Assembly: GCA_004299485.1 (NCBI GenBank)
Contig: SCQP01000001.1
Location: 62,001-126,000, forward strand
From: Acidobacteriota bacterium
Lineage (GTDB): Bacteria; Acidobacteriota; Terriglobia; Terriglobales; SCQP01
Reading direction: 5' to 3'
DNA length: 64,000 nt
This document shows, piece by piece, positions 4,324 through 39,824 of this stretch (position 1 is its first letter; every line of letters starts with the position of its first letter). The notes below the pieces were generated by a model. The model did not search any database, was not told the origin of the DNA, and saw nothing but the letters and a program-made list of their open reading frames with translations. The position numbers and the translations under genes were made by a program.

Positions 4324-5279
4324 TCCTTTTCCCTCTTCCCTCTTCCCTTTTCCCTCTCCCCTCTTCCCTCTTCCCTTTTCCCTCTTCCCTCTTCCCTCTT
4401 CCCTCGTATCTCTTCCATCGCCTGCTGGATCGCGGCGCGCGCCGCTCCCTCCAGCGCCAGCATCGGCCGCCGCGGCGGGCCTCCATAAAAAAGCCCGGCA
4501 GCATCGACCGCTGCCTTGAGCCCGGCGATCCCGTAAGGTTCGAACGCCCGGCACGCCGGCAGCAGCGCCCGCTGCGCCGCCAGAGCCCGCGCGTGGTCAC
4601 CCGACTTAAAGGCTTCCTCCACCGCGCAGCACGCCCCCGGCGCCGCCGCCGCCAGCGCCAGGATCGCCCCCGCCGCCCCCGCGCACAGACTCGGGTAAAC
4701 GGTTGACGCCCCACCCACCAGCACCGGAAATTCCGGCATTGCGGAAGTGATGCGCACCACCTTATCCATATTTCCGCTCGATTCCTTCAACCCTACGATG
4801 CGCGGATGCGCGGCCAGCTCCAAAATCGTCTCCACCCCCAGATCGACGCCGGTCAGCGGCGGAATGTTATAGAGCACGATAGGCAGCGCCGCCTCCTCCG
4901 CCAGCTCGCGGTAAAACTGCGCCAGCACCGCCTGCGTCATATTCTTCTTGTAATAGTGCGGTGTCCGCACGACAGCGGCCGCGTACCCATAATCCGCCGC
5001 CGCCGCGGTCATGGCGAGGGTTCCGCGCAGCGACTCTTCCCCGGTCCCGGCGAGCAGCAATTTCCCGGACCCACGCGCCGCGCTCGCCGCCCTTCTCAGC
5101 ACCTCGCGCTTCTCGCCGCTGTCGAGGTAAATCGCCTCCCCACTCGACCCCAGCACCAGGTACCCAGCGAGCCCCGTCCCGTTATACGCCCCAAGGTTCG
5201 CGTCCAACCGCTCCGGCAGCAGATTCCCGCCGCCATCAAACGGCGTAGTCACCGCCGCAATAATCCCCCGAAGCTCCAT
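4320..5279 (-). CDS. DapA-family lyase (dihydrodipicolinate synthase/N-acetylneuraminate lyase superfamily)
   Basis: 319 residues. A class I aldolase-type TIM barrel. The GSSGE motif (about 44-48) corresponds to GTTGE of DapA, YNIPPLTG (about 137) carries the catalytic Tyr, and GLKESSG (about 163) the Schiff-base Lys. Substrate is unclear: DapA of lysine synthesis or a related 2-keto acid lyase are both possible. The natural end is near QQAMEEIR. The last 25 or so residues (GKREEGRG-type repeats) are the TTCCCTC array read as protein, a tail not typical of the family. The TGA overlaps the bshC GTG. A further TTCCCTC array lies just upstream of the start. Confidence 0.85.
   Translation of the reverse strand: MELRGIIAAVTTPFDGGGNLLPERLDANLGAYNGTGLAGYLVLGSSGEAIYLDSGEKREVLRRAASAARGSGKLLLAGTGEESLRGTLAMTAAAADYGYAAAVVRTPHYYKKNMTQAVLAQFYRELAEEAALPIVLYNIPPLTGVDLGVETILELAAHPRIVGLKESSGNMDKVVRITSAMPEFPVLVGGASTVYPSLCAGAAGAILALAAAAPGACCAVEEAFKSGDHARALAAQRALLPACRAFEPYGIAGLKAAVDAAGLFYGGPPRRPMLALEGAARAAIQQAMEEIRGKREEGRGKREEGRGEREKGRGKREKE
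4327..4405. repeat. TTCCCTC heptamer array inside the DapA-like coding end
   Basis: About 11 units of the same heptamer as at 2566-2767, here translated as the C-terminal tail of the DapA-like protein and lying immediately upstream of the bshC start. Seven is not a multiple of three, so the array reads as a seven-residue peptide repeat in each frame. Confidence 0.92.
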
Positions 5280-5286
5280 CCCCCTG

Positions 5287-5336
5287 CTTCCCTCTTCCCT
5301 TTTCCCTCTTCCCTCTTCCCTTTTCCCTCTTCCCCC
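5287..5336. repeat. TTCCCTC heptamer array between the DyP-like and DapA-like genes
   Basis: About seven units fill nearly the whole 58-bp gap between these minus-strand genes. Read on the coding strand it gives GAGGGAA repeats a few bases before the DapA-like ATG. Confidence 0.9.
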
Positions 5337-15216: not shown

Positions 15217-15504
15217 ATGGGAAAAGCCAACAAAGCTCACGCCAAGCGGCGAATCACGTTAAGCCTGCCGGTCGCGGCGCTGGCGACCGCGAAACGCCTG
15301 GCGCGGAAGCGGGGCGTGACCCTGGGCACCGTCGTGAACGAAGCGGTGCGTGATGGCCTGCGCGTGCTCGCGGCGGCCCCGCCGCCACCGCCAACGCCGC
15401 CCACAGCGCTGCCCGGTCTGGCGGGCTTTCGCGCCAAAATCAAAGTGGCCGGAAAGCCGATGAGCCAAACGGTCGTCGCCCGCCGCCGCCGCGAACGCGC
15501 CTGA
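15217..15504 (+). CDS. Ribbon-helix-helix (CopG/MetJ-like) protein, possible orphan antitoxin
   Basis: 95 residues. Residues 11-50 give an RHH pattern: a basic start, strand RRITLSLP, helix ALATAKRLARKRG, then VTLGTVVNEAVRDGLRVL. The C-terminal part has a poly-Pro linker and a short basic tail, as in toxin-binding tails of antitoxins. No ribosome-binding site stands out and no toxin gene follows. The surroundings are decayed (Fic pseudogene before, antitoxin remnant after), so it may be an orphaned antitoxin or a small DNA-binding regulator. Confidence 0.55.
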   Translation: MGKANKAHAKRRITLSLPVAALATAKRLARKRGVTLGTVVNEAVRDGLRVLAAAPPPPPTPPTALPGLAGFRAKIKVAGKPMSQTVVARRRRERA

Positions 15505-15711
15505 GCAGCATCTCCGGCCAACCATTCTGCCGTTTCCTGCTTCTAATTACCCATACGCCAACTCCAGCAGACTCCGCCTCAGCGATCCCAAAGGGCAGCG
15601 CGGGCGGCTCTGCGCCGGGCAACCCGCCGCATACCGTGGGTGCGCTCCGCCGATTCCACGCCCCAACCATGTCCTCCTCCCGTCGTCCGGCTTCCGAGCC
15701 TTGGCCCACCA

Positions 15712-15842
15712 CCCGCCACCGTCCTTCTCTCATCCCGGTCCAGCCCCTCATGCACCGGCACCTTGATATACGTCTGGTAGCGCAGCCCCTTGCGCTCCGC
15801 CAGCACCCGCGCACGCTCCACGTCGCGCGCAATTCCCGTAGC
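15712..15842 (-). pseudogene. Fragment of a CopG-type antitoxin
   Basis: A minus-strand stretch reads ARDVERARVLAERKGLRYQT then YIKVPVHEGLDRDERR, the usual C-terminal half of RHH antitoxins (IPKxDLERARxLAxKKGLxYQT). The N-terminal half is missing: upstream of it the frame runs into the tandem repeat. No toxin partner is seen. Confidence 0.6.
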
Positions 15843-15898
15843 ACCGCGGAGCCCGTTCGGCCGATAGACCGACAGACGCAGAGACCGACAGCCCCAAC

Positions 15899-16496
15899 GG
15901 TGTTCCAGTCGCTCTCCCGCACTGTCCCACCCTCCGTGCGCAAAAACCCCAGCAAACACGCTACTTTGCACCGCAAAGTGGGACACTTAGCAGTTCGAAA
16001 TGGAACAGCGAATGAGGCAACCCGCCACGCCCTCAGAGCCCGTTCGACCGACAGACCGAGAGACCGACAGACCGACCGACCCATCAATGTCCCATTCGCA
16101 CTCCCGCGCTGTCCCACCCTCCGCACGCAAAAACCCCCGTAAACACGCGACTTTGCATCGCAAAGTGGGACACTTAGCAGTTCGAAATCGAACAGCGAAT
16201 GAGACAAGCCGCCCCGTCCTCCGAGCCCGCCGACCGACCGACCGAAAGACCGACCGACCAAACCACTCGAGCCCAGAGCCGCGCTGGGGCCCGCGCATTC
16301 AATGTCCCATTCGCTGTCCCGCCCTGTCCCACCCTTCGCATCCAAAAACCCCCGTAAACACTCTACTTTGCATCGCAAAGTGGGACACTTAGCAGTTCGA
16401 AATGGAACAGCGAATCAGACGCATCGCCACGTCCTCCGAGCCCGCCGACCGACAGACCGACCGAAAGACCGACAGACCGATCGACCGACCGACCTC
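15899..16496. repeat. Three tandem copies of a nested-hairpin unit joined by GACC/GACA microsatellites
   Basis: Units start near 15899, 16086 and 16301; the marker GGACACTTAGCAGTTCGAAA recurs at 15981, 16168 and 16383. Each has nested inverted arms. In unit 3: ATTCGCTGT (16309-16317) with ACAGCGAAT (16407-16415), TGTCCCAC (16325-16332) with GTGGGACA (16380-16387), ACTTTGC (16365-16371) with GCAAAGT (16375-16381). The inner arms are kept in all copies; the outer arm differs but still pairs (TGTTCCA with TGGAACA in unit 1). CGAC/AGAC-rich runs such as CCGACCGACAGACCGACC separate units. The array abuts the 3' end of the htrA gene. Confidence 0.88.
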
Positions 16497-18023
16497 CTAC
16501 GGCTGCGGCGTAATCGGCACGATGAGATTGCTTCCTTGCCGGTAAACCATCAGCAGCACGTCCCCGCCCGCCGGCGTGGCCTTAAGCTGCGCCTCAAGGG
16601 CAGCGATCGAGGTCACCGGCTTCTGGTTCACCTGCTCGATGATGTCGCCGCGCGTAAGGCGCATGGCGGCGGGGCCGTCGGGTTCAACCGACTGCACCGC
16701 AAGGCCGTTCACACCCGCAGGGAGATGAAGCTGGTCGCGGATGTCCGGCGTCAGCGGCGTGACCGTGAGGCCCAGCTTGGGCGTGGTGCCGTTGTCGCTG
16801 CTGCCGGCCGAGGCGGTCTCATCCGCCGTGGGCGCGTTGGCGAAGTTGCCCATGGTGAGGGTGAACTGCATCGGCTTGCCGTTGCGGAGAATGTTGACCG
16901 TGGCTTTCGTGCCCGGGGCGGCGCTGCCGGCAATCGAGGTGAGTTGGCCGCTGGTGGTGATCTTCGTGCCGTTGAAGTCGGTCACCACGTCGTAGGGCTT
17001 GATGCCGGCCTGGTCGGCCGGACTGCCGGCGTTGACCTGATCGACGAGCGCGCCCTGAGCGTCGGGCTCATGCAGCGAGGTGGCGACGCCAGGCTGAAGC
17101 TGGCTGACAGTGATGCCGAGATAGCCCCGGATGACCTTGCCGTGCTCGATCAGATCGGTGGCCACGGACTTGACCAGATCGCTCGGGATGGCGAGGCCGA
17201 TGCCGATCGAGCCGCCCGAATCGGTCAGCATTTCGGTGTTGATGCCGATCACCTGACCGCGAATGTTGACCAGCGGCCCGCCCGAGTTGCCATGGTTGAT
17301 GGGCGCGTCGGTCTGGATGAAGTTGCCGCGCGTGTCCTGGCTGCCGTTGCGCGGCCGGTTGAGGGCGCTGATGATGCCGCGCGTGATCGAGGAGGCTTCG
17401 CCCAGCGGCGTGCCGATGGCCAGCACGGTCTGGCCGGGTGCGAGCTGGTTGGAGTCGCCGAACTGGGCGCTGATCAGCCCGGGTGCGTCGATTTTGACCA
17501 CGGCGAGGTCGGTGTCCTTATCCGTGCCAACCACCTTGGCCGGGTAGGTGCGGCCGTTGTTGAGCATCACCTGCACCTGCGTCGCGCCATCGACAACGTG
17601 ATTGTTCGTGATGATGTAGCCATTGGGCGACACGATGACACCGCTGCCAAGCGCGTGAAAGGGCTGGGCGTGCGGCTGCTGGAACGGCCCCTGGAAAAAC
17701 TGCCGGAAGGGCGCGGGGATGTTCTGCGGCATCTCGATACTGCGCGCAGGCGCCTTGCCCGAGACTTGGATCTGCACGACGGTGGGCAGCACGCGCGCGG
17801 CGACGGCAACGGTCGCGCGGTTGAGTGCTTCGAGCGGCGCGATGGTATCCGCGCTCAGCGGCTTCATCGTCGCCACCATGGGGCTGCCGCCCGACGACAA
17901 CCGCGGCAGATGGATAAAGCCCGCCGAGGCGGTCGCCGTCACAGCGAGCACGACGATGGCCGCGCCGATCACTTTGGTGCGGTTGGAGAGGCGCGCGAGC
18001 AGAGGACGAGAGTTGGGAATCAT
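16497..18023 (-). CDS. HtrA/DegP-type periplasmic serine protease
   Basis: 508 residues. One membrane or signal segment (about 17-36), then a trypsin-like domain with His in TNNHVVD (about 140), Asp in DTDLAVVKI (about 170) and Ser in GNSGGPL (about 250), and two PDZ domains (about 285-375 and 400-500). It should degrade or refold damaged envelope proteins. The gene follows the M56/BlaI pair on the same strand with a 20-nt gap after the M56 gene, so it may be co-transcribed and controlled by BlaI. Its stop lies directly beside the tandem hairpin array. Confidence 0.92.
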   Translation of the reverse strand: MIPNSRPLLARLSNRTKVIGAAIVVLAVTATASAGFIHLPRLSSGGSPMVATMKPLSADTIAPLEALNRATVAVAARVLPTVVQIQVSGKAPARSIEMPQNIPAPFRQFFQGPFQQPHAQPFHALGSGVIVSPNGYIITNNHVVDGATQVQVMLNNGRTYPAKVVGTDKDTDLAVVKIDAPGLISAQFGDSNQLAPGQTVLAIGTPLGEASSITRGIISALNRPRNGSQDTRGNFIQTDAPINHGNSGGPLVNIRGQVIGINTEMLTDSGGSIGIGLAIPSDLVKSVATDLIEHGKVIRGYLGITVSQLQPGVATSLHEPDAQGALVDQVNAGSPADQAGIKPYDVVTDFNGTKITTSGQLTSIAGSAAPGTKATVNILRNGKPMQFTLTMGNFANAPTADETASAGSSDNGTTPKLGLTVTPLTPDIRDQLHLPAGVNGLAVQSVEPDGPAAMRLTRGDIIEQVNQKPVTSIAALEAQLKATPAGGDVLLMVYRQGSNLIVPITPQP

Positions 18024-18043: not shown

Positions 18044-19324
18044 CTAAATGCTGTTGGAGAGGACGAATACCTCTACCGGCCGGATCACAGGCACACAATG
18101 CGGAATCATTTCCAGGCGCAGGACGGCGAGGCCGGAAGGCAATACTCCGGGAACCCATTCGGGCTGCGACGTGCACGCTTGCACGGTGCTGAGCGTAAAG
18201 GTGACGTAGGTAGCTTCGATCGTCGCAACGGCTCCGAACCCTGCGCCCTCCGAACGTACCGGCGCCGTCTGGCGCTGCGCGCTCCGCGGCGGCGCCATCG
18301 GTTCCTGCACCAGGGGGACCCGAGCGAGTTGCGCTGTGGGCGCGGCCGGGGCTGTCGGCAGCGCTGGCGCCGGAGGGATAGTTTGCGCGCTGGCACCCAG
18401 CAGCCAGACACCCGTCGAGGCGATCAGCAGCAGCGCCACCGCAGTGCGCAGCATCCGGGCGCGCGAAGCCGCGGGATGGCCCAGCAGCCGGGTGACGCGG
18501 TGCGAAAGCGAGCCGCCGCCGGCTGCCATCGCGGCGGAAGGCACGCGAGCAGCCGTCTGCCGCGCCGCCAGGTCGACCAGTGCGCGCGCGTACAGCGCAC
18601 GGTCGCCGCACACGGCCACCGCGGCATCATCGCAGCAATGCTCACGCTCCTCGGAGACCTGCTGCGACAGCCACCACACCGCGGGATGAAAAAAGAAGAG
18701 AACCTCGACCCCGCGCTGCACCAGGTTCACCAGATAGTCATGCCGGCGGATGTGCGCCAGCTCGTGCGCCAGCAGCGCCCGGAGCTGCTCTGCCGGCAGC
18801 GCCGTGAGCGCGCTCAGGGGCAGCAGAATCACCGGCCGCAGCCAGCCCAGCGTGCACGGGCCGCTGATGCGCGCGGAAACCTGCATGCACACGCGCCGGC
18901 GCAAATGCAGCCGCCCGGCAAGCTGCTCCATCTCGGTGCGCCAGACCGCCGGAACGGCAGCCGCGGCGCTGCGCTCAGCACGGCGCAGCCCTTGCGCCCA
19001 GGCAAACCCCGCCGCAGCGTAGCCGCCGCACACCACGATGCCCGAAAGCCAAACCATAACGATGTAAGCAGCAAACGGCTGCACCAGCGGCTCCGCGGTA
19101 ACAGCCGACGCCGCGCCCGCGCCCGCCGCGGCGTAATGCGCGACGGTCAAAGCAAACAGAATCGGAAGGGAGAACAGGGCCATGCAATCCAGAACATAGC
19201 GCGCGGCCGCCGAGCCGCGGCGCAGCAGCGGCTGCACCGCCAGCACCACCAGCGCCACCGCCGCCGCTTCCCACAGAAATTGCGTGAGTGCGGCGCCAAA
19301 TACCGGAATCCAGGGACTGGTCAT
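18044..19324 (-). CDS. BlaR1/M56-family membrane metallopeptidase
   Basis: 426 residues. Several hydrophobic helices in the N-terminal third, then the M56 zinc site HELAHIRRHD with a downstream EREHCCDDAAV segment, a further helix near residue 300 and a C-terminal periplasmic tail. There is no penicillin-binding domain, so the signal is probably not a beta-lactam. In BlaR1 systems the peptidase domain leads to cleavage of the repressor BlaI; the start here overlaps the blaI-like stop as ATGA, supporting a dedicated pair. Confidence 0.88.
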   Translation of the reverse strand: MTSPWIPVFGAALTQFLWEAAAVALVVLAVQPLLRRGSAAARYVLDCMALFSLPILFALTVAHYAAAGAGAASAVTAEPLVQPFAAYIVMVWLSGIVVCGGYAAAGFAWAQGLRRAERSAAAAVPAVWRTEMEQLAGRLHLRRRVCMQVSARISGPCTLGWLRPVILLPLSALTALPAEQLRALLAHELAHIRRHDYLVNLVQRGVEVLFFFHPAVWWLSQQVSEEREHCCDDAAVAVCGDRALYARALVDLAARQTAARVPSAAMAAGGGSLSHRVTRLLGHPAASRARMLRTAVALLLIASTGVWLLGASAQTIPPAPALPTAPAAPTAQLARVPLVQEPMAPPRSAQRQTAPVRSEGAGFGAVATIEATYVTFTLSTVQACTSQPEWVPGVLPSGLAVLRLEMIPHCVPVIRPVEVFVLSNSI

Positions 19325-19725
19325 GAGTGCTTCCCTTCCCGCGTCTCCCTGCTCTCATAATGATCGAGAAGCTGGCGCATTTCGGCAATTTCGGCGGGCG
19401 TCGCCGCCCCCGCGTCCAGAAGCTGCATCATCATCCGCTTGGCCGAGCCGCCAAACGCGCGCGTCAGCAGGTCGCCCACAAGCTGCCGCTCGGTGCGCTC
19501 GCGGTCCAGCCGGGCGCAATACACGTGCGCCCGCTGCTGCTCATCGCGCGAAACCAGTCCCTTCTCCGCCATGATCTGCAACAGCTTCAACGCCGTGGTG
19601 TAGCCGGTCGCCGGGCCCAGCTCGGTCTGCACCTCCCGCACCGTGGACGGCCCGTGCGTCCACAGCACCCGCAAAATCGCCAGCTCGCTTTCCGTCGGCC
19701 GCCGCTTCGGCGTGATCGCTTCCAT
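19321..19725 (-). CDS. BlaI/MecI-family transcriptional repressor
   Basis: 134 residues with a winged helix: LRVLWTHGPSTVREVQTEL then GYTTALKLLQIMAEKG and a wing ending RAHVYCA, followed by a dimerisation helix. It pairs with the overlapping M56 peptidase gene. Two palindromes, one inside its own promoter, suggest autorepression. The -10 box is so close that the transcript may begin at the ATG. Confidence 0.9.
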   Translation of the reverse strand: MEAITPKRRPTESELAILRVLWTHGPSTVREVQTELGPATGYTTALKLLQIMAEKGLVSRDEQQRAHVYCARLDRERTERQLVGDLLTRAFGGSAKRMMMQLLDAGAATPAEIAEMRQLLDHYESRETREGKHS

Positions 19726-20766: not shown

Positions 20767-21917
20767 TGCGGCGCGGCTGCGCGCTTCTCGCCATCATTTC
20801 CCTGCTGGCCTTGGCCCTGGCCGCTCAGGATCCAGGAAAGCCGCGCCCGCGGACGCGCGATCTGGGAATCATCACCGGCATTCTGCCGACCGGGCCGCTC
20901 GACGCCATTACGGATGTGCCCGGCGTCGAGGTAGGCCAGGTCACGCTTAACGACCATCAGAACCTTCATACCGGCGTGACCGCGATTTTGCCGCACGCCG
21001 GCAACATGTTTCAGCACAAGGTCCCAGGCGCGGTGTTCGTGGGCAATGCCTTCGGCAAGCTCATGGGCTCAACCCAGATCGTCGAACTCGGCCGCATCGA
21101 GACGCCCATTCTGCTGACCAGCACCTTAAATGTCCCGCGCGTCGGCGACGCGCTGCTGAGCTGGGTGATGCAGCAGCCCGGTAACGAGCACGTGCAGTCC
21201 ATCAACCCGGTCGTGGGCGAAACCAACGACGGCTACTTGAACGACATTCGTGGACGCCACGTCGATCAGCAGGACGTCTTCGAGGCCATCGAGAACGCGC
21301 GCGGCGGTCCGGTCGCGGAAGGCTCGGTGGGCGCGGGTGCAGGCACGGTGGCGTTCGGCTTCAAGGGCGGCATCGGCACCGCTTCCCGCAAGCTCCCGGC
21401 AAATTTGGGCGGCTGGACGGTAGGCGTGCTGGTGCAGACCAACTTTGGCGGCATCCTCAACATCGACGGCGCCCCGGTGGGAAGACTCCTGGGTCGGTAC
21501 TACCTCAAGAACCAACTGGCAGGGGTCAGGGGCCAGGGGCCAGGGGCCAGGCTGGAGTCCCCCGATGGTTCCTGCATGATCATCGTCGCCACCAACGCTC
21601 CCGTGGGATCGCGCAACTTGCGCCGCATGGCGGCGCGGACGATGTTCGGCCTGGCCCGCACCGGCTCCGCCGCCAGCAACGGCTCCGGCGATTACGCCAT
21701 CGCCTTTTCCACGGTCCCTGCAAACGCCGGCGTGGCGCGCGTGCCCAACGACAAAATGTCGCCGCTCTTCCTGGCGGTCATCGAGGCCACCCAGGAGGCC
21801 ATCTACAACTCGCTGTTCAAGGCCACAACCGTGACCGGCCGCGGCCACACCGTAGAGGCTCTACCTCTCGCTCCGACAGAGCGCATCCTGCGCGCGTACC
21901 ACGTAATCCAGCAATAG
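20766..21917 (+). CDS. DmpA-type (P1/S58) aminopeptidase, exported
   Basis: 383 residues with a signal peptide (about 1-20, ending LALA-AQD). P1 peptidases are Ntn-type hydrolases that cut themselves before a Ser or Thr nucleophile; here the site should be the G-S in SPDGSCMIIVATNAP (about residue 262). Other family blocks are ITDVPGVEVGQVTL, INPVVGETNDG and GSVGAGAGTVAFGFKGGIG. They release N-terminal residues from peptides or D-amino acid amides. Just before the processing site a CAGGGGY heptamer repeat is read in frame as LAGVRGQGPGARLE, an insertion in the linker between the two chains. Confidence 0.85.
   Translation: MRRGCALLAIISLLALALAAQDPGKPRPRTRDLGIITGILPTGPLDAITDVPGVEVGQVTLNDHQNLHTGVTAILPHAGNMFQHKVPGAVFVGNAFGKLMGSTQIVELGRIETPILLTSTLNVPRVGDALLSWVMQQPGNEHVQSINPVVGETNDGYLNDIRGRHVDQQDVFEAIENARGGPVAEGSVGAGAGTVAFGFKGGIGTASRKLPANLGGWTVGVLVQTNFGGILNIDGAPVGRLLGRYYLKNQLAGVRGQGPGARLESPDGSCMIIVATNAPVGSRNLRRMAARTMFGLARTGSAASNGSGDYAIAFSTVPANAGVARVPNDKMSPLFLAVIEATQEAIYNSLFKATTVTGRGHTVEALPLAPTERILRAYHVIQQ
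21519..21552. repeat. CAGGGGC/T heptamer repeat inside a coding region
   Basis: Four to five units of CAGGGGT or CAGGGGC. The same motif recurs at 36178-36216 and 39826-39853. Here it lies within the peptidase gene without breaking the frame. Confidence 0.85.
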
Positions 21918-35099: not shown

Positions 35100-36233
35100 A
35101 TGCGCAGGAAAGCGGTCATCGGAGTTCTGCTTGCGGCGCTGGTAGCGGCGGGATTGTACTTCGTTCTGCGGCCGCGCCAGCAGGTACTGACGCTCACCGG
35201 CACGGTGGATGGCAACGAGGTGGTGGTGGGTTCGCAGATCACGGCGACCATCGTGAAGATGGACGTGCAGGACGGCGAGGCGGTGCAGGCCGGGCAATTA
35301 CTCGCCACCCTGAGCCGGAACGTGCAGACGGCGGATGTGGCCGCGGCGGCGCAGGCGATTCAGCAGGCGCAGGCCAATGCGCGACAATCGGCGGCGCAGA
35401 CCGCGATGCTGGCGGCGACGCTGCCGGCAAAGCTGGCGCAGGTGGAAGCGCAACAGCAGCAGGCGCAGGCGCAACTGGCGCAGGCCAAAGCGCAAGCGGC
35501 CTCGGCGGCGGCGGCGTGGAAGAACGCCCACGCGACCTACCAGCGCGTAGCGCCGCTGACGGCACAAGGAGTGAGCAGCCAGCAGGAGTTGGATAACGCC
35601 ACCGCGGCGCTGGACACGGCGCAGGCGGGCCGGGTTTCGGCGCAGGCGGCGGTGACGGCGGCGGCGCGGGCGGCGGCGGCGGCGCAGGCGGCGGTGGCCG
35701 ACGCGAAAGCGCAATTGCAGCAGGTAAAGGTGCAGCGGCAGCAGACGGCGGCGCTCGAAGCAAGCGCGCGGCAGGCGCAGGCGGCACGGGCGGCGGCACA
35801 GGCGCAGTTGGGCTTTACGCAAATCGTGGCGCCGGTGGATGGTGTCATCACGCTGCGGGCGGCGCGCGAGGGCGAGGTGGTGGTGCCGGGCGCACCGATT
35901 GTGACTATTTTTCAGTTGAGTGACACCTGGGTGGACGCGGATGTCGCCGAGACCTATGCGCCCGGCGTGCGGCTGGGGCAAGTGCTGACCGTGCGGCTGC
36001 CCTCGGGGCGGGAGGTGAAGGGGCCGGTAATCTACAAGGCGGTCGAGGCGGACTTCGCCACGCAACGGGATGTGAGCCGGACCAAGCGCGACATCAAGAC
36101 GGTGGCGATCCGGGTGAAGGTCGATAACCCGCAAGGCGAGCTGCCGCTGGGGATGACGGCGTGGGTGATGTTGCCGGTCCAGGGGTCAGGGGCCAGGGGT
36201 CAGGGGTCAGCGGGGGGCATCCGTGGAAACTAG
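35100..36233 (+). CDS. HlyD/EmrA-type membrane fusion (periplasmic adaptor) protein
   Basis: 377 residues from ATG 35100 with AAAGGA 6 nt upstream. One N-terminal membrane helix (about 4-22), a split biotinyl-lipoyl domain (about 33-80 and 235-275), a long Ala/Gln coiled coil between them, and a beta-barrel (about 280-360). It should bridge inner-membrane ABC transporter and outer membrane. The last residues QGSGARGQGSAGG are a CAGGGGY heptamer repeat read as protein. The end overlaps the ABC ATPase start by 11 nt. Confidence 0.9.
   Translation: MRRKAVIGVLLAALVAAGLYFVLRPRQQVLTLTGTVDGNEVVVGSQITATIVKMDVQDGEAVQAGQLLATLSRNVQTADVAAAAQAIQQAQANARQSAAQTAMLAATLPAKLAQVEAQQQQAQAQLAQAKAQAASAAAAWKNAHATYQRVAPLTAQGVSSQQELDNATAALDTAQAGRVSAQAAVTAAARAAAAAQAAVADAKAQLQQVKVQRQQTAALEASARQAQAARAAAQAQLGFTQIVAPVDGVITLRAAREGEVVVPGAPIVTIFQLSDTWVDADVAETYAPGVRLGQVLTVRLPSGREVKGPVIYKAVEADFATQRDVSRTKRDIKTVAIRVKVDNPQGELPLGMTAWVMLPVQGSGARGQGSAGGIRGN
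36178..36216. repeat. CAGGGGT/C heptamer repeat at the end of the HlyD gene
   Basis: Five units encoding the low-complexity Gly/Gln/Ser tail of the adaptor protein and ending just before the GGGGGG stretch that may serve as ribosome-binding site of the ABC ATPase gene. Confidence 0.85.
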
Positions 36234-38704: not shown

Positions 38705-39824
38705 GAAGAAGTGGTCAGTGGTCAGTGGTCAGTGGTCAGTTTTTTCGAGGCACAGGAGGGGGCTGGGACGATCGCTGGGGGTACTGTGTCTGATGGCGTG
38801 TCTGGGGGTGGCGCTGCGCGCCGACACGCTGATCTTTAAAAACGGCGATGAGCTGACGGGAACGCTGGTGCGGGCGGATGCGAAGGGGTGCGTGTTTGCC
38901 AGCAAGATGGCGAGTGACGTGACCGCGCCGTGGGACAACATCCGCGAGCTGCGCACAACCACCACATTTGTCGTGGTCACCAAGGGTGGCGAGGTGTATC
39001 GGGGCACGCTGCTGGTGGAAAACGACAGCCTGGTGGTGTCGAGCGCGACGGCGCCACCGGCGTTTCTGGGCGCGCCGGACGTGCTCATGGTGGTGGATCC
39101 AAAGACGTACACCAAAGAAGTGCTGGCGCATCCGCGCCTGTGGCAGAGCTGGCGAGGGCAGATTGTTGGCGGCTTCAGCCAGGTGAGCGCAACGCAATCG
39201 TCTACCAGCTACACGACGCAGCTCGATTTGCAGCGGCCGGTGCCGAAACTGAGCTGGCTGGAGCAGAGGTCGAATACGCTGCTGCACTTTAACGGCACCT
39301 ACGGCAAGTTGTCGCAGCCGCACACGCCGACCGTGCGGACCAGCATTTTCACAGCGGGGCTGGAGCAGGACCAGGACATCAGCAAGCGATTGTTTCTGTT
39401 TGCCAACACACGGTTCGACCACAATGACGCGCAGGGCCTACAGTTGCAGCAGGCCTATGGCGGCGGGATCGGCTGGAAAGTGAAGACGACGTCCGACACG
39501 CAGCTCGCGCTACGCGCCGACCTGCACTGGACGCGGCAACGCTTTTTGAGCACGGTTAACAACAATTTTCTGGCCTCCAGCGTGACCGAGACCCTGCGGC
39601 AGATGCTGCACAAGGTGATCTGGACGCAGAGCATCAGCATCACGCCCAGCATCACGCATGGGGTGGCCTACCAGATGTCGGGGATAAGCGCCTGGGCGAT
39701 GCCGGTGTATCACAGCCTGAGTCTGAACTTTACCGTCGTGGATGCTTACCTCAACAACCCACAGCCGGGATTCTTGAAGAACTCGCTGCAGTACAGCACG
39801 GGCTTGCAAATCAACCTGCACTGA
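38697..39824 (+). CDS. DUF481 family outer-membrane beta-barrel protein
   Basis: Up to 375 residues. A signal peptide (SLGVLCLMACLGVALRA) is preceded by a stretch WSVVSGQWSV that is only the AGTGGTC heptamer repeat translated. The true start could be further down (for example near 38790). The N-terminal domain (DTLIFKNGDELTGTLVRAD) is of the type often found with DUF481. The rest alternates polar and aromatic residues as in an outer-membrane barrel and ends in LQINLH. Its start overlaps marR, so it may be the outer-envelope partner of the efflux genes, though that is inference. Confidence 0.78.
   Translation: MGEKKWSVVSGQWSVFSRHRRGLGRSLGVLCLMACLGVALRADTLIFKNGDELTGTLVRADAKGCVFASKMASDVTAPWDNIRELRTTTTFVVVTKGGEVYRGTLLVENDSLVVSSATAPPAFLGAPDVLMVVDPKTYTKEVLAHPRLWQSWRGQIVGGFSQVSATQSSTSYTTQLDLQRPVPKLSWLEQRSNTLLHFNGTYGKLSQPHTPTVRTSIFTAGLEQDQDISKRLFLFANTRFDHNDAQGLQLQQAYGGGIGWKVKTTSDTQLALRADLHWTRQRFLSTVNNNFLASSVTETLRQMLHKVIWTQSISITPSITHGVAYQMSGISAWAMPVYHSLSLNFTVVDAYLNNPQPGFLKNSLQYSTGLQINLH
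38711..38740. repeat. AGTGGTC heptamer repeat at the DUF481 gene start
   Basis: Four perfect AGTGGTC units between the candidate ATG (38697) and the signal peptide. A change in unit number would move the frame. Confidence 0.9.

Follow-up and report, generated by a model that had tools for sequence, protein, structure and literature searches.

Organization of the repeat block behind htrA

The stop codon of the htrA-type serine protease gene (trypsin and PDZ domains; 16497..18023, minus strand) directly adjoins, at position 16497, a block of repeated DNA able to form hairpins, which raises the question of whether this block is an RNA kept for its fold or repeat DNA of mobile origin. In the window, that is, the whole stretch of 64,000 nucleotides that was analyzed, we recovered the arrangement described in an earlier note on this DNA: three units with nested inverted arms, joined by GACC/GACA microsatellites and starting right after the end of htrA. 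The unit, here called repeat A, is about 117 bp long and occurs three times on the minus strand (copy 1, 15899..16017; copy 2, 16087..16204; copy 3, 16302..16419), successive copies starting 187 and 215 bp apart. The copies are separated and flanked by arrays: a degenerate GACC/GACA octamer array lies at 15859..15892, a second GACC/GACA octamer array (16045..16082) separates copy 1 from copy 2, a GACC octamer array (16230..16260) separates copy 2 from copy 3, and a GACC/GACA array (16445..16494) separates copy 3 from the htrA stop codon.

Repeat A starts near TGTYYCATTCGCTGTTCC, continues with AAGTGTCCCACTTTGC...GCAAAGT and GGGTGGGACAG, and ends near GGRACAGCGAATGGRACA; it is bounded on both sides by terminal inverted repeats of 16 to 17 bp (TGTYYCATTNGCTGTYCC). 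Each side carries up to three TGTNCCA-type motifs, inverted between the sides, the starts of which are spaced by about 12 and 22 bp on one side and by about 10 and 12 bp on the other; in most copies, these motifs are found near positions 0, 12, 33 and 90, 100, 112.

What the earlier note had missed is the larger composite to which A contributes just the leader and which reaches down to about position 15513. A second repeat, B (15513..15674, minus strand), which also lies downstream of A at other sites, forms its tail and is preceded by a degenerate GGTGGCGGGTGGT-type spacer (15675..15730, minus strand), as is likewise the case at C7:38, C16:223, and C1:522. Since about 9 bp separate the end of B from the stop codon of a small, convergently oriented open reading frame (15217..15504, plus strand), the gap from 15505 to 16496 consists mostly of A, arrays, and B, with the exception of about 15731-15848. 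An open stretch on the minus strand at 15726-15848 (...GIARDVERARVLAERKGLRYQTYIKVPVHEGLDRDERR) looks, by eye, like part of a BrnA/CopG-type antitoxin and may be what is left of a gene between A and B; the frame enclosing it had no Pfam match. Directly upstream of htrA, on the side away from the block, 18044-19725 contains genes for a BlaR1-type M56 peptidase and a BlaI-type repressor.

Copies elsewhere in the genome

Repeat A is not confined to the window. By blastn, by exact-word matching, and with a covariance model (R1), we identified ten clear A copies, distributed over seven sites and scoring 92-125 bits with R1: the three in the window and seven more at six other sites in the same genome. 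The latter comprise a tandem pair behind a murG-like gene (C1:283886 and C1:284162) and five single copies (C1:522709, C7:37966, C14:127276, C16:222922, and C18:176447); diverged or weaker relatives were found at C4:1148, C16:156707, and C9:30743. The window copies are about 86-92% identical to each other, whereas the copies elsewhere are 78-85% identical to window copy 3 over the aligned parts, a difference that fits local duplication after dispersal. Every A site examined either falls in a gap between two open reading frames or extends over a stop codon by about 12 nt. Repeat A is short, non-coding, and dispersed in several copies, as expected of a MITE. Could there be no element at all, but only chance or simple-repeat expansion, together with a single sequence behind htrA that was duplicated on the spot? 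The tandem part there does resemble such a duplication, but matches of high significance on other contigs, flanked by the same neighbors in the same order, refute this reading, and we give it next to no credence.

Each of the seven clear sites has, downstream of A and in the same orientation, repeat B, recognizable by GTTGGATCGGCGGTGCGCACCCACGGTATCCGGCGGGYTGCCCGG...TAGTTAGANG...GGTTGGCCGGA, or B-type sequence; at one of these (C18:176), only a remnant is left, ending TAGTTAGAAG...GGGGTTG. A sequence model of B (R2) placed it next to A at six sites and additionally detected a partial B inside the A pair at C1:283/284 and four B sites without A. In four copies, the distance from A to B is 166-179 bp. 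What separates A from B is an octamer array (GGTCTATC type), a heptamer array (AGTGGCT type), or degenerate DNA of that look; arrays with a period of 8 or 7 also precede B where A is absent. Because A, array, and B follow each other in fixed order across sites, the unit is a composite of leader A, simple-sequence array, and tail B.

Three further observations concern individual sites or parts of the composite. Between both A copies at C1:284 (L049, about 1238-1330), we found a diverged repeat of the last codons of the murG-like gene, suggesting a local duplication that included the gene end. At C1:483495, a partial A end lies beside a gene that, by reading, appears to encode an IS3-type transposase. 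Finally, GTTAGAC-like words in B (TAGTTAGAC) led us to consider an integron attC site, which was rejected: the word varies among the copies (ATTAGAA, CTTAGAT), and a paired R'' box was not apparent.

Distribution in other genomes

Searches with R1 covered 14 genomes from the family, 397 from the order, and 396 from the phylum, the latter two sets under stricter filters than the first, and this genome alone gave a match. A blastn search against 60 relatives returned no A and one 22-bp chance match, and neither a pattern scan of viral contigs nor a blastn search of plasmids and phages yielded anything real. A scan of GTDB contigs for the core pattern gave a single match, in a Lachnospiraceae genome in which the remaining element is absent, and this was dismissed as a lone chance match. 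A is therefore restricted to this genome among those searched, a species-level limit that is relative, given that the same-genus members with a clear HtrA match share only 57-59% identity with it in the HtrA protein.

Arms, helices, and fold strength

The earlier note had derived selection for folding from outer arms said to have changed on both sides (ATTCGCTGT/ACAGCGAAT versus TGTTCCA/TGGAACA). Read in register on the plus strand, however, copies 1 and 3 share the right arm GGAACAGCGAAT, which contains TGGAACA and ACAGCGAAT together; copy 2 has CGAACAGCGAAT in this place. Each outer arm holds two tandem TGTNCCA motifs, and the quoted arm pairs are, since one right arm holds both words, two registers of one repeated motif. 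The sole change is one-sided: in the left arm of copy 1, AGTCGCTCT replaces ATTCGCTGT without a matching change in the right arm, and the TGTTCCA of copy 1 forms its pairs with the inner motif, out of register. The analysis of 12 genomic copies did not rescue the claim, with 76% of the cells of the outer helix paired and with neither the count of pairs changed on both sides (164/500) nor that of pair types (153/500) rising above shuffles for the whole structure. A cell-weighted covariation score did exceed the shuffles (2/500), in a test in which related sequences may do so without any structure. A structured RNA with covarying outer arms is, in short, not supported.

The middle helix is better kept, with 92% of cells paired across the 12 copies. 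Departures from pairing on the htrA-sense strand are mostly G-T (25, versus 3 A-C), and one site has changed on both sides, with C-G and G-C in four copies each and no pair in the other four. The window copies fold more strongly than dinucleotide shuffles, more so on the minus strand, which is the htrA sense (z, -3.8 to -6.5), than on the plus strand (z, -2.9 to -4.9). In 4 of the 12 copies, on the other hand, fold energy on the htrA-sense strand is at background (z, -0.06 to -0.56), and the common fold is therefore not kept in all copies of A.

These features bear on a rival reading: selection on its fold would maintain A as a structured RNA, for instance a terminator, an mRNA stabilizer, or a source of small RNA, that acts in the 3' untranslated regions of htrA and further genes. 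The stronger fold on the htrA-sense strand, the excess of G-T departures, and the C-G/G-C exchange would all agree with this, as would the location of A, which overlaps or follows by 11 to 127 nt a co-directional stop codon at htrA and at murG-like, OsmC-like, and ABC-ATPase genes (all but htrA named from reading their translations). Two congeners, moreover, have strong hairpins and T runs behind htrA; a terminator scan of the window found none there, a negative that counts for little because the scan also missed hairpins of congeners that are plain in the sequence. However, a third of the copies fold no better than shuffles on the relevant strand, the two-sided site is broken in as many, the outer arms lack covariation by pair-count measures, and at C1:522, C14:127, and C18:176 the end of A faces the apparent start of a divergent gene. 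The repeat matched no Rfam family at the gathering score and, as described above, is absent from every relative searched. On balance, we consider such an RNA unlikely. At a lax Rfam threshold, the sole match was a miRNA in the GACC array, which we discarded as implausible.

A variant of this idea starts from an alternative local hairpin, AAGUGUSCCACUUUGC/GCAAAGUGGCGUGUUU. Of nine copies, three form all 16 of its pairs and one more forms 15. If A were transcribed, this hairpin and the middle helix (GUGUSCCACUUU/AGGGUGGSACA) would compete as mutually exclusive folds, and copies behind genes would work as a switchable 3' element derived from a mobile repeat, a scenario that we deem very unlikely.

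A probable degenerate, MITE-like repeat

Most likely, the A block is repeat DNA, dispersed and degenerate, and not an established regulatory RNA. Repeat A is probably the leader of a degenerate, non-autonomous, dispersed intergenic repeat (A, simple-sequence array, B) that was locally tripled at htrA. Copies of the composite would have spread in the past, within the species lineage, into intergenic gaps, often beside stop codons. The inverted TGTNCCA-type motifs look like the paired sites by which the ends of a miniature transposable element are recognized, and the ability of A to form hairpins would then follow from their inverted arrangement. At htrA, a segment made up of A, a spacer of about 28 bp, and the GACC array may have been tripled, most simply by slippage or by unequal recombination between similar GACC arrays. 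Past mobility, recognition of the ends of A by a transposase, and this route of amplification are what we infer.

The hairpin-based mobile element suggested earlier is thus the best-fitting class, on account of the dispersed intergenic copies and inverted ends, but its mobility is inferred. By eye, no consistent target-site duplication was present beside the A ends of four copies; no empty site was found, the nearest genomes being the distant congeners mentioned above; and, among the end-pattern matches listed for this genome (assembly 98.8% complete), there was no larger element with the ends of A, so no autonomous partner is known. For these reasons, we do not file A as a proven MITE. The low copy number also argues against a mobile repeat, and a middle helix that is largely paired and departs mostly by G-T is something that an element acting only as DNA would not need.

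Two other readings take the motifs as their starting point. In the first, A is a multi-site binding element for a host protein (a regulator, nucleoid factor, or recombination factor), the motifs being protein sites and the hairpin incidental. The regular motif positions in most copies are consistent with this, but the accompanying B and arrays would be left unexplained, and the genes beside the A sites share no evident function; we regard this as quite unlikely. In the second, A is an element of the REP/REPIN type moved by a Y1 (RAYT) transposase: like REPINs and BIMEs (PMC3116915), it consists of inverted, hairpin-capable doublets in an intergenic, partly tandem, mosaic arrangement. Its end motif, however, is a direct repeat of TGTNCCA instead of a short tagged palindrome, no palindromic REP unit is present, and ten clear copies contrast with hundreds. 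No Y1_Tnp domain (PF01797) was found in the genome, whereas control genomes were positive, so that a RAYT gene would have to sit in the missing ~1% of the assembly, which makes this reading extremely improbable.

If the A block is repeat DNA, as we favor, it may still have had consequences for htrA. The GACC array after the htrA stop codon folds no better than shuffles (z, -0.66), and with a stop codon followed by a weakly folding array and then by A, the repeat may now form the 3' part of the htrA message. As a possible side effect, predicted from the sequence, a terminator might have been replaced and the gene given a putative hairpin-rich 3' untranslated region.

Comparison with known repeats

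Closest in plan is BrickBuilt, a MITE of Porphyromonas gingivalis that consists of a leader, a tandem repeat array, and a tail, is intergenic, has 19 copies in the genome of one strain, and has been reported from one species only, its copies being non-identical and sometimes missing pieces (PMC4596501). The likeness in plan extends to the order of parts, intergenic location, limitation to a species, and unevenness of the copies. The array unit, in contrast, is 23 nt in BrickBuilt (PMC4596501) and 7 or 8 nt here. Furthermore, BrickBuilt has inverted-repeat ends on its leader and tail, whereas the inverted repeats described here bound A alone; none joining A and B were seen.

To our knowledge, an associated array and tail have not been described for the enterobacterial elements RU-1/ERIC, RU-2, and RU-3 or for Correia-type elements. 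Like A, these are MITE-like, intergenic, and of similar length (127 bp for RU-1/ERIC; PMC2759123), and no resemblance in sequence was noticed, short of an alignment. With no match in Rfam or the searched collections, the species-level repeat reported here joins a small set of composite intergenic repeats in which inverted-repeat units are joined to simple-sequence arrays, and its array provides a simple means by which tandem copies could build up in place behind a protease gene. Should mobility or an effect on htrA mRNA prove true, the locus would be a modest but usable system; at present, it counts as repeat DNA of an ordinary, dispersed kind that holds some interest.

Other repeats near A and in the window

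The diverged relatives of A at C16:156 and C9:30 have a ATTGTCACAAAATC-type flanking motif in common, one of them adjoining a queA-like gene and the other a ruvC-like gene (names by reading). Another repeat, D, of about 130-140 bp (GTGGCTCGCCACTTTTTGCCC...GTCGCTCCCGTTGGTCGC...CTCCTCCAAGCYGCCGCCA), was observed at C1:522, C14:127, C16:223, C7:228, and C14:129. At C1:522, it lies inside A, which continues beyond it, so that D looks like an insertion there, perhaps with a 3-bp (TGG) duplication. Finally, 7-bp periods recur in the window, with heptamer arrays (CCCTCTT, CAGGGGC, AGTGGTC, and others) at 2565-2765, 4325-4416, 5282-5334, 21520-21551, 36180-36210, and 38710-38740.
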